Shown piece by piece: positions 12,295-15,812 of a stretch of 32,572 nt of DNA. Under the pieces are notes generated by a model. It was not told the origin of the DNA and made no database searches. It saw only the letters and a list, made by a program, of their open reading frames with translations. Position numbers and translations under genes: made by a program. Numbering within the stretch: position 1 is the first letter of the stretch; every line of letters starts with the position of its first letter. The DNA lies in NCBI GenBank assembly GCA_903929765.1, contig CAIYVX010000039.1, positions 1-32,572 of the forward strand. The letters are read 5' to 3'. Source of the DNA: an uncultured Planctomycetia bacterium. GTDB taxonomy: Bacteria; Planctomycetota; Phycisphaerae; FEN-1346; JAACEH01.

Positions 12295-12349
12295 CTTCAC
12301 CCCTCTCCCTTGGGAGAGGGTGGCCGCTTCAGCGGCCGGGTGAGGGGTT
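12295..12349 (+). repeat. Module A copy 3
   Basis: First hairpin CTCTCCC-TT-GGGAGAG, second GGCCGCT-TC-AGCGGCC; followed by GATGCCC, a flank also seen after copy 4. Confidence 0.85.
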
Positions 12350-12429
12350 GATGCCCTGTACTCCCAATCTTGAACACCGTTTCTTCCGTTACTAACCACT
12401 GCCCACTGGCCGTTCCCTCCCGCGCCCGC

Positions 12430-12435
12430 TATAAT
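12430..12435 (+). promoter_or_regulatory. TATAAT box upstream of the radical SAM gene
   Basis: A perfect -10 hexamer 45 bases before the start. At 17 bases upstream is TGGCCG, a poor -35. Confidence 0.4.
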
Positions 12436-12479
12436 GCCTCCGAATCATCCGCTTCTCCGGCCGCCATAAGGATCGCTTA

Positions 12480-14036
12480 ATGACTTGGAAACGTATCCTC
12501 TGCCTCTACCCCTACTCGCCCACTAAAAAGAGCGAGCAGCTTTACGGCGGCATGGCCATCATCAACCCCATCGGCCTCGAAGTCGTCGCCACCGCCGCCG
12601 CCCGCCTGGCCGAGGTTCTGCTCGTTGACCTCCGCCTCGAAAAACGCCCCCTGGCCGACCTCATCGCCGAATTCAAACCCGACCTCATCGCCGTCAGCCT
12701 CAACTGGGGCGGCGACGAATTTGTCGATAATGTGCTCCGCTCCCTCCCGCCCGACGTCACCCTCATCGTCGGCGGCATCTTCCCCACCCAACACCCCGAC
12801 GACTGCTTCGCCGCCTACCCCAACCTCGATCTGCTCGCCCTCGGCTACGGCGAGAAAACCATGACCGAACTCCTCCAGCGCGGCTCCCCCGAAGGCGTCA
12901 AAGGTCTCTGGTATCGCCGCCGCACCAAATCCTGGCCCCCTGGTTCAGGGGTGCCACACTTTGTCCCGGCGAGCCGTTCCGCCGGGCAAAGTGTGTCGAA
13001 TGCCGGCCCGCAACCAAACTCCGAAACCACCTCCGCCGAACCGGTGGCCGAAATCGTCAAAAACGATTACCGTTACGAAGTCGATGTCGCCGACTTCCAC
13101 GTCAACCGCAAGCTGCGCCGCTACACCTATCCCTTCCTCCGCCTCAAGGGCGACAACATCGCCACCAGCATCGGCTGCCCCATGGTCTGCGCCTTTTGCG
13201 GCTGGCGGACCAACATCTACGGCGAGACTCAGCCCTGGATTCCCCGCCCCGCCGCCGATGTCGTCGACGAAATCGCCGAGACCGACGCCGACGTCGTCCA
13301 CCTTGTCGACGCCAACTTCGCCCACGATCCCAAACGCGTCGAGGAAATCTGCGACCTCCTCATCGCCCGCGACATCCGCCGCCTCCTGGCCTGCGAAATC
13401 CGCGTCAACGCCCTCGTCCACAGCCCCGAACTCGTCAAAAAAATGGAGCAGGCCGGCTTCTTCATGTTCATGATCGGCATCGAAGCCGCCTCCGACCCCA
13501 TCCTCAAACGCCTCAAAAAAGGCTACACCGTCAAGATGTGCCGCCAGGCTTTCGACCACCTACGCCAGACGCACATCGTCACCCTCGGCAACTTCATCAT
13601 CGGCGTTCCCGGCCAGTCCGAAGACGACATGCTCTACATCGCCCGCTACGCCCGCGAGATCGGCCTCGATTTCCTCAGCCCCAACAAGCTCTACGCCTAT
13701 CCCAACTCCGCCTTCCGCGAATGGATCATGGAACATCCCGGCTACCACATCGAAGAGCGCCGCCAGTACGTCGTCAGCGACCAGATCGGCATGAAAAAAC
13801 TCCGCCAGATCCAACGCAAAATCTATTTCCGTTTCTTCACCGCCCCCCACGTCTGGCACTTCTACCGCAAGGCCCTCTCCCACCCCATGGTCCTCAAGCT
13901 CGGCCGCTCGCGCATCCGCAACGCCATGCTCCGCACCCTCCTCGGCCACCTCGCCGACCCGCGCTTCCGCAAACGCCTCATCAAAAAACTTTTCGGCCGC
14001 TTCAACAAAAAGCGCCGTCCCGCCGCAACCATGTAG
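12480..14036 (+). CDS. Cobalamin-binding-type radical SAM protein with a repeat-derived insert
   Basis: A 518-residue class B radical SAM protein of the BchE-like superfamily. Residues 1-150 form a B12-binding-like Rossmann domain ending in GYGEKTMTELL. The cluster motif is CPMVCAFC (Cys233, Cys237, Cys240), followed by the barrel with FMIGIEAASD and GVPGQSEDD, and a basic helical C-terminus. The substrate cannot be predicted. Residues of about 157-175, between the two domains, are encoded by a module H palindromic repeat (12948-13004) inserted in frame. The classic DxHxxG B12 ligand is not evident in the N-terminal domain, so cobalamin use is unproven. ATG at 12480 follows AAGGA at 12468-12472. 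The TAG stop is the start of module D. Confidence 0.88.
   Translation: MTWKRILCLYPYSPTKKSEQLYGGMAIINPIGLEVVATAAARLAEVLLVDLRLEKRPLADLIAEFKPDLIAVSLNWGGDEFVDNVLRSLPPDVTLIVGGIFPTQHPDDCFAAYPNLDLLALGYGEKTMTELLQRGSPEGVKGLWYRRRTKSWPPGSGVPHFVPASRSAGQSVSNAGPQPNSETTSAEPVAEIVKNDYRYEVDVADFHVNRKLRRYTYPFLRLKGDNIATSIGCPMVCAFCGWRTNIYGETQPWIPRPAADVVDEIAETDADVVHLVDANFAHDPKRVEEICDLLIARDIRRLLACEIRVNALVHSPELVKKMEQAGFFMFMIGIEAASDPILKRLKKGYTVKMCRQAFDHLRQTHIVTLGNFIIGVPGQSEDDMLYIARYAREIGLDFLSPNKLYAYPNSAFREWIMEHPGYHIEERRQYVVSDQIGMKKLRQIQRKIYFRFFTAPHVWHFYRKALSHPMVLKLGRSRIRNAMLRTLLGHLADPRFRKRLIKKLFGRFNKKRRPAATM
12948..13004 (+). repeat. Module H copy 1, in frame inside the radical SAM gene
   Basis: GGGTGCCACACTTTG, an inner hairpin CCCGGCG (12965-12971) / CGCCGGG (12980-12986), then CAAAGTGTGT. 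The outer stem is CACACTTTG (12955-12963) with CAAAGTGTG (12987-12995). It is clearly the same element as the intergenic copy at 14103, with the same outer arms and a different inner hairpin. Confidence 0.85.
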
Positions 14037-14090
14037 GTCGGGTCAACAGACCCGACCGTAATATATGGCCGTTTTCCGCTTGCCGTGACC
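14034..14090 (+). repeat. Module D copy 2, supplying a stop codon
   Basis: TAGGTCGGGTCAACAGACCC, then ATGGCCGTTTTCCGCTTGCC further on. Its first three bases are the stop codon of the radical SAM gene. Confidence 0.85.
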
Positions 14091-14102
14091 GTTTCTTTTT
14101 CC

Positions 14103-14156
14103 GGGTGCCACACTTTGAAGCCCCAGCTTCTTCGGGGCCAAAGTGTGTGCTTTGTA
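14103..14156 (+). repeat. Module H copy 2: nested double hairpin
   Basis: Outer stem CACACTTTG (14109-14117) with CAAAGTGTG (14139-14147); inner stem GCCCC (14120-14124) with GGGGC (14134-14138); 3' tail TGCTTTGT. Confidence 0.85.
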
Positions 14157-14221
14157 ACGCCTTGTTCGATAGAATGTCGATAATCCAATGAAGCCCCAGA
14201 CTCCCGAACCGGAACTCTGAC

Positions 14222-14261
14222 TTCATGATTGGACATTGAGTGTTGGATATTGGATATTCGC
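14222..14261 (+). repeat. Module I copy 3
   Basis: 40 bp with GGACATT in place of GGATATT. It reads in frame into aroDE and creates a false start at 14229. Confidence 0.8.
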
Positions 14262-14308
14262 CGTTTCTTCCGTTTTATGCGGGGTTTTCCCGTAATTACC
14301 GCCGAAAT

Positions 14309-14317
14309 TGGTAAAAT
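14309..14317 (+). promoter_or_regulatory. Possible extended -10 element before aroDE
   Basis: TGGTAAAAT fits an extended -10 with one mismatch; no -35 is visible. A start near 14324 would leave a leader of only a few bases before the ATG at 14331. Confidence 0.3.
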
Positions 14318-14330
14318 GGATCCTCCTGCT

Positions 14331-15812
14331 ATGGCCAAAATCTGCGTCCCCATCCTCTCCCCCACCACCGCCGCCGCCCTGGCCGAAATGGCCCGCCTCG
14401 CCCCTCTGGCCGACCTCTTCGAACTCCGTCTCGACCACCTGTACGAATGCGACCTCGCCCGGCTCCTCGCCGACCGTCCGCGCCCCGTCATCGTCACCAA
14501 CCGCTCCTCCGTCGAGGGCGGCTTCAAAATCCAGGACGAATCCGCCCGCCTCTCCTCTCTCGCCCAAGCCGTCCGACTCGGCGCCGATTACGTCGACGTC
14601 GAACTCACCTCCCTCCCCGCCTTCGAAAGATTCTGCCCGCGGAGCCTCCGCGGTCAGACCAAACTCATCGTCAGCTACCACAATTTCGCCTCCCTGCCCG
14701 ATTACCTGCCGGACCTCGCCCGCTCCATCGCCGAAACCAACGCCGACATCGTCAAGGTCGCCGCCATGGCCCAATGCCTCGAAGACAACCTGAAAATCTT
14801 CGCCCTCCTCCGCGCCGCCACCAAACCCACCATCGCCCTGGCCATGGGTGAATTCGGCCAGATGAGCCGCATCCTCGCCGGAAAATTCGGCGCACTCCTC
14901 ACCTTCGCCGCCGCCGAATCCGGCCTTGAAAGCGCCCCCGGCCAGATCACCGCCGACCAAATGGCCAACCTCTACCACGCCAACCGCATCAACCCCGACA
15001 CCCGCGTCTACGCCCTCATCGGCAACCCCGTCGAGCACAGCCTCGGCCCCGCCATTCACAATGCCGCCTTCGCCGCCCTCGACCTCGACGCCGTTTACCT
15101 CCGACTCAAAGTCGAAGGCGACCCCGCCGACCTCGTCCGCGCCTTTGCCGCCATCCCCATCGACGGCTTCAGCGTCACCAGCCCGCACAAGACCGCCGTC
15201 ATGGCCGCCTGCTCCAAAATCGACCCCGTCGCCCTCCGCATGAAGGCCGTCAACACCCTCGTCCGCCGCGACGACGGCTACCACGCCACCAACACCGACG
15301 TCACCGCCGCCATGCAAGCCCTCGCCGTCGTCCTGGGCACCGACGATTTCTCCGGACGCCGCGCCGTCGTCGTCGGCGCCGGCGGCGTCGGCCGAGCCTA
15401 CGTTCACGGACTCATCGCTCGCGGCGCCGTCGTCTCCGTCGCCGACCTCGACGAAGCCCGCGCCCGCGCCCTCGCCGAAGAATCCGGCGCCACACCCATC
15501 ACCCTCGCCCAGGTCGCCCAAACTCAAGCCGACATCCTCATGAACGCCACGCCCCTGGGCATGTGGCCCAAAGTTGACGCCACCCCTGTCGATCCCGCCG
15601 CCCTGCGCCCCGGCCTGGTCGTCTTCGACGCCGTCTACAATCCCCGCGAAACTCGCCTTCTCCGCGAAGCCGCCGCCCGCGGCTGCCAAACCATCAGCGG
15701 CGTCGAACAGTTCATCGGCCAGGCCATCGAGCAATTCGAACTCTGGACCGCCCGCCCCGCCCCCGCCGAACTCATGCGCCAAGTCGTCCTCGACGCTTTA
15801 GAAAACAAGTAA
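14331..15812 (+). CDS. aroDE: Fused 3-dehydroquinate dehydratase (type I) / shikimate dehydrogenase
   Basis: A 493-residue protein catalysing steps 3 and 4 of the shikimate pathway. Residues 1-220 are a type I dehydroquinase: His117 in SYHNF and the Schiff-base Lys142 in DIVKVAAMAQ are present. From about 227, YALIGNPVEHSLGPAIHN opens the shikimate dehydrogenase, with catalytic Lys287 (SPHKTAV), Asp323 (NTD) and the NADP loop GAGGVG from 349. Such fusions are known in plants, chlamydiae and some PVC bacteria; channelling of dehydroshikimate is plausible. ATG at 14331 fits the dehydroquinase N-terminus; 14316 is an alternative and 14229 lies in a repeat. No ribosome site is visible, so the message may be nearly leaderless. 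Confidence 0.95.
   Translation: MAKICVPILSPTTAAALAEMARLAPLADLFELRLDHLYECDLARLLADRPRPVIVTNRSSVEGGFKIQDESARLSSLAQAVRLGADYVDVELTSLPAFERFCPRSLRGQTKLIVSYHNFASLPDYLPDLARSIAETNADIVKVAAMAQCLEDNLKIFALLRAATKPTIALAMGEFGQMSRILAGKFGALLTFAAAESGLESAPGQITADQMANLYHANRINPDTRVYALIGNPVEHSLGPAIHNAAFAALDLDAVYLRLKVEGDPADLVRAFAAIPIDGFSVTSPHKTAVMAACSKIDPVALRMKAVNTLVRRDDGYHATNTDVTAAMQALAVVLGTDDFSGRRAVVVGAGGVGRAYVHGLIARGAVVSVADLDEARARALAEESGATPITLAQVAQTQADILMNATPLGMWPKVDATPVDPAALRPGLVVFDAVYNPRETRLLREAAARGCQTISGVEQFIGQAIEQFELWTARPAPAELMRQVVLDALENK

Follow-up and report, generated by a model that had tools for sequence, protein, structure and literature searches.

In the window, a stretch of 32,572 nucleotides that is contig 39 of the draft genome of an uncultured planctomycete, a REP has entered a gene at the linker that joins its B12-binding and radical SAM domains, with the reading frame kept, and a RAYT transposase has probably spread the family to which the REP belongs; we put the probability of this reading at about 0.88. 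The genome has well over 100 copies of the palindrome. The outer arms GGTGCCACACTTTG...CAAAGTGTG are constant across the family and enclose an inner stem that is one of two types, A and B. In-frame copies lie in the radical SAM gene and in at least six other conserved genes, where the inserts lengthen the protein by roughly 15-60 amino acids, for the most part at flexible joints.

The in-frame copy in the radical SAM gene

The host gene (12480..14036, plus strand) encodes a protein of 518 amino acids, in which Pfam places a B12-binding domain (PF02310) at residues 28-131 and a Radical_SAM domain (PF04055) at residues 230-390. The type-B copy occupies 12949..13008 on the same strand and consists of the head GGGTGC, the hairpin and the tail TCGAATGCCGGCC, as delimited by the consensus with other type-B copies. 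The hairpin itself (12954..12995, plus strand) has an outer stem CACACTTTG/CAAAGTGTG and an inner stem CCCGGCG/CGCCGGG. A first-pass annotation of this DNA had described an insert of about 19 residues at 12948-13004. The insert is real but its extent has to be revised: because the tail is common to other type-B copies, the repeat unit ends at about 13008 and therefore encodes about 20-21 residues, approximately GVPHFVPASRSAGQSVSNAG, in a stretch bounded by ...VPHFVPASR and SAGQSVSNAGPQPNSETTSAEPVAEIVK. The open reading frame runs through the element without a stop, as the annotation had it, and the insert falls at about residues 157-176, between the two Pfam domains, in agreement with the interdomain location it proposed. 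In an AlphaFold model that is weak overall (pLDDT 66.7, 8 sequences), residues 153-187 have a pLDDT below 50 and cover the insert; this stretch and residues 218-252 are the two longest of low confidence.

An intergenic type-A copy lies nearby at 14103..14159 (plus strand), with the same outer arms, an inner stem GCCCC/GGGGC and an unpaired AA. Comparison of the two copies bears out the annotation's description of shared outer arms around different inner hairpins. The left arm GGGTGCCACACTTTG is identical at 12949-12963 and 14103-14117, and the right arms, GGGCAAAGTGTGT (12984-12996) and GGCCAAAGTGTGT (14136-14148), are 92% identical, whereas the inner hairpins are TCCCGGCGAGCCGTTCCGCCGGG in the gene and AAGCCCCAGCTTCTTCGGGGC in the intergenic copy. 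Folded as DNA, both hairpins are more stable than all of 200 shuffles (z = -4.6 and -3.3, respectively).

A separate, GTAG-tagged palindrome, GTAGGTCGGGTCAACAGACCCGACC, lies at 14033..14057 (plus strand), outside the GGTGC-tagged family. It has three identical copies in the genome (fold z = -5.9), and the radical SAM gene takes its TAG stop codon from the GTAG of this palindrome.

Comparison with orthologues

The named relatives found by searching with the radical SAM protein belong to the Planctomycetota, and the nearest is labelled Phycisphaerae. Seven orthologues were aligned, the nearest and six order-mates, with identities from 74% down to 56%. The encoded residues are absent from all seven and both flanks align (to the nearest at 71% identity), the outcome that the annotation had predicted for a mobile palindrome inserted in frame; the same residues in distant orthologues, which it had named as contrary evidence, were not found in these seven. 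The nearest orthologue (about 71-75% identical) has 493 amino acids, a net excess of 25 residues in the protein described here. Because it is just that similar, a target-site duplication or an exact empty site is unreadable, and the extreme variability of the linker in all relatives leaves the exact ends of the insertion uncertain.

Since none of the seven orthologues has the encoded residues, the evidence strongly favours an insertion over an ancestral linker in which the palindrome arose by coincidence. The length of the linker does differ widely among relatives, and in some it equals or exceeds the length found here. However, no relative carries the encoded residues, the insert DNA matches a repeat with 99 exact core copies, the same peptide is present in the unrelated SMC protein, and the long linkers of the relatives consist of other palindromic sequences. 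A coincidental palindrome is thus extremely improbable. Only slightly less so is a false join within the gene caused by the short repeat. The genome is a draft in 116 contigs, and short-read assembly can be misled by repeats of about 45 bp, but here the two flanks form one gene, match the same orthologue and are in frame, as is also the case at six other genes; neither gene nor frame would survive a chance join.

A GGTGC-tagged family of REPs

The 3.83 Mb draft was scanned by pattern searches, from which, together with the fetched loci, the copies were counted. The core GCCACACTTTG-N5-35-CAAAGTGTG has 99 exact copies against none for the reversed control pattern, far above the level of chance, and the left arm GGTGCCACACTTTG at no more than one mismatch has 181 copies genome-wide against one for the control. 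For anatomy and typing, 124 copies were fetched with their flanks. A simple sorting rule assigns 85 of them to type A (inner stem AAG-CCCCGGC..GCCGGGG-C) and 39 to type B (T/G-CCCGGCG..CGCCGGG). The tail TCGAACGCCGGCC, which the radical SAM gene copy has, is frequent in type B and specific to it. The tag GGTGC stands at the 5' foot of 122 of the 124 copies, and the stem has two parts, a fixed outer part of 9 bp and a variable inner one.

Pairing in the stem is conserved. In 60 type-A copies, 95.8% of the pair cells are standard pairs, dropping to 25-47% when the pairing is slid, and 14 cells have changed on both sides, compared to 3.1 in shuffles (0/500). The family is therefore a short, dispersed, high-copy palindrome with a conserved hairpin, as REPs in general are. 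Close copies are arranged tail-to-tail in 13 of 15 pairs, with spacers of 10-90 nt, the inverted pairs with a short spacer that characterize REPINs. The GGTGC tag of 122 of the 124 copies rules out the GTAG superfamily of REPs (tag GTAG, or GYRG/GTGG), and a conserved head without CGTC rules out the CGTC superfamily. An Rfam search of positions 12400-14600 gave no matches. Among 61 genomes (this one and 60 relatives) the family is found only in its own genome and in one family-mate; of 391 other genomes sampled from the phylum, one has a few look-alikes with a different inner sequence.

A candidate transposase and a proposed mechanism

Eight Y1_Tnp matches are present in the genome. One of them, the RAYT-like gene L036 (ORF 1273-1938 of its locus), has inverted type-B copies on both sides, at 1209 and 1915. 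Its best PDB match is the E. coli TnpA-REP structure 4er8 (E = 6e-8), and HFH and YIHNNPVRRGLV motifs can be read in its sequence. Flanking of a RAYT gene by repeat copies was thus seen at one Y1_Tnp gene of eight and for type B only; bracketing by the GGTGC-tagged repeat was not found at the seven others, and no type-A copies were seen around any RAYT. Judged by sequence, the element has the anatomy of the RAYT/REPIN system.

We propose that a RAYT-type HUH tyrosine transposase would recognize the single-stranded hairpin with its 5' tag and has probably spread the family. On this reading one type-B copy entered the linker that connects the B12-binding domain to the radical SAM domain, its frame being preserved through the unit length together with local changes, and the flexible linker accepted about 25 additional residues. 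The L036 RAYT may have been the enzyme that moved this copy. The radical SAM protein presumably remains working, and selection may have purged insertions that broke the frame.

In-frame copies in other genes

Candidate host genes were sought with a hexamer coding model as copies flanked on either side by coding sequence in a single frame. Orthologue alignments reveal seven further insertion sites where the insert is absent from relatives. They are a full inverted pair in the hinge of smc, a copy in mfd, two tandem copies in the CCA-adding enzyme gene cca, two sites in a U32 peptidase gene (one a single copy, the other a pair), and one copy each in genes for an FtsX-like permease and a WaaP-like kinase. 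When SMC and the CCA-adding enzyme are compared with solved homologues, the inserts lie between two stretches that match. There are four further likely host genes: ParB-like, KS-like, GGDEF-like and one for a membrane protein. For the last three the basis is coding score and translation, and the ParB-like insertion is not callable because orthologue linkers vary too much. Host names beyond radical SAM, SMC and CCA were assigned by reading the sequences. In the cca locus (L129:1499-1659), the unit that repeats across the two tandem copies is about 117 nt long, which suggests duplication following insertion.

The encoded peptide, which the annotation had suggested looking for in the genome's other proteins, recurs in the unrelated SMC. 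The radical SAM and SMC proteins have the peptide SGVPHFVPA..AGQSVS in common and their inserts share a reading frame (SGVPHFVPAGFIAGQSVS in SMC and SGVPHFVPASRSAGQSVS in the radical SAM protein); the other host genes read the element in other frames and orientations. Where both flanks are coding-like on one strand, the frame is kept at 18 copies and not at 3, a count by the hexamer model in which paired copies are counted separately and unconfirmed genes are included. At L019, L092 and L145, the coding-like flanks are on one strand in different frames, as at adjacent or broken genes. Among the loci fetched from the nearest relative, no in-frame copies in its own genes passed the coding filter, which was trained on the other genome.

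It is quite unlikely that the element is kept in the radical SAM gene for a selected function of its RNA or DNA hairpin or of its peptide. The pairing of the hairpin is conserved across copies, and roles in transcription termination, mRNA stabilisation and supercoiling have been suggested for REPs elsewhere (PMC3733652); on the other hand, frames and orientations of the element differ between host genes. About 5 of the 6 frames of a copy are open, more than in shuffles, but the copies are related to one another. On the two consensus sequences, the openness does not significantly exceed that of random hairpins (P = 0.22 and 0.26); that translatability is an evolved trait is left unproven.

Relation to known systems

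The annotation had drawn an analogy to the palindromic elements (RPEs) of Rickettsia. These are described as about 150 bp in size (PMC10969869) and, like the element here, lie in frame in many unrelated genes. As an assignment to a family the analogy is not supported: the anatomy is that of REPs and REPINs with a RAYT, and the CGTC tag reported for RPE-4/6 of R. conorii (PMC3733652) is absent; the comparison is with published descriptions of the RPEs. In its working it appears from sequence to resemble a RAYT-mobilised REP rather than an RPE. As in the REPIN/RAYT systems (Bertels and Rainey 2011, PMC3116915; TnpA-REP, PMC8266576), inverted pairs have short spacers and a RAYT gene has inverted copies on either side, and the unpaired AA of the type-A stem recalls the bulge of the E. 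coli REP. The differences are another tag, two types of inner stem on one set of outer arms, and a single bracketed RAYT.

In-frame REPs are known from a few other bacteria and were already reported in 2013 (PMC3733652). Di Nocera et al. defined the GTAG and CGTC REPs, found such repeats in Planctomycetes and gave a list of REPs located within ORFs. Opitutus terrae (Verrucomicrobia) had the largest number of intragenic GTAG repeats, and many of the intragenic REPs are in repair and replication genes (PMC3733652). The annotation's statement that no case is described in this lineage therefore holds narrowly, but not for REPs in Planctomycetes or for intragenic REPs in O. terrae, which belongs to the same PVC superphylum as the host here. 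Those REPs are likewise short palindromes, single or dimeric, that sit within the ORFs of conserved genes, some of which serve repair and replication, and their dimers add about 20-30 residues (PMC3733652). They differ in their tag (GTAG or CGTC rather than GGTGC) and in their host genes, and the stem here is longer and in two parts. What is new is the repeat family, the host genes and landing sites, and the signs of other palindromes in the same linkers of order-mates. In-frame REP insertion is thereby extended to an uncultured planctomycete lineage and a new tag, and orthologues support cases in core genes, smc, mfd and cca among them. The annotation's suggestion that the element creates new protein sequence is borne out at the level of predicted sequence.

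Other palindromes at the same linkers

In order-mates, the radical SAM linker contains other palindromes in frame (L041, L042, L043, L044 and L045). Other in-frame palindromes are also found in order-mates in the Mfd linker (L163, L165 and L181) and in the SMC hinge loop (L179). Several of these repeats are dispersed: many further copies exist in genome G003 of its L041 and L181 inserts and in genome G004 of its L045 insert; for the L043 insert there was no further copy among the matches listed. The recurrence at the same sites suggests either preferred landing or preferred tolerance. We lean slightly towards the view that such permissive sites have been colonised repeatedly, independently and in frame by different palindromic families across genera of the order, so that REP populations may keep supplying linker sequence there. 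Different repeats in orthologous linkers would constitute a natural experiment on where proteins accept inserts, and on whether the inserted peptides remain neutral or acquire a use.

A second, GTAG-tagged REP family, CGTAGGGGCAGAG...CTCTGCCC, has 38 copies, and in-frame inserts within mfd and the ParB-like gene of the same genome (L014 and L095) are related to it. Upstream of the radical SAM gene, at 12300-12348, lies yet another palindromic repeat, CCCCTCTCCCTTGGGAGAGGG...GGGTGAGGGG, and a repeat similar to it is found in frame in the linker of the L045 orthologue.
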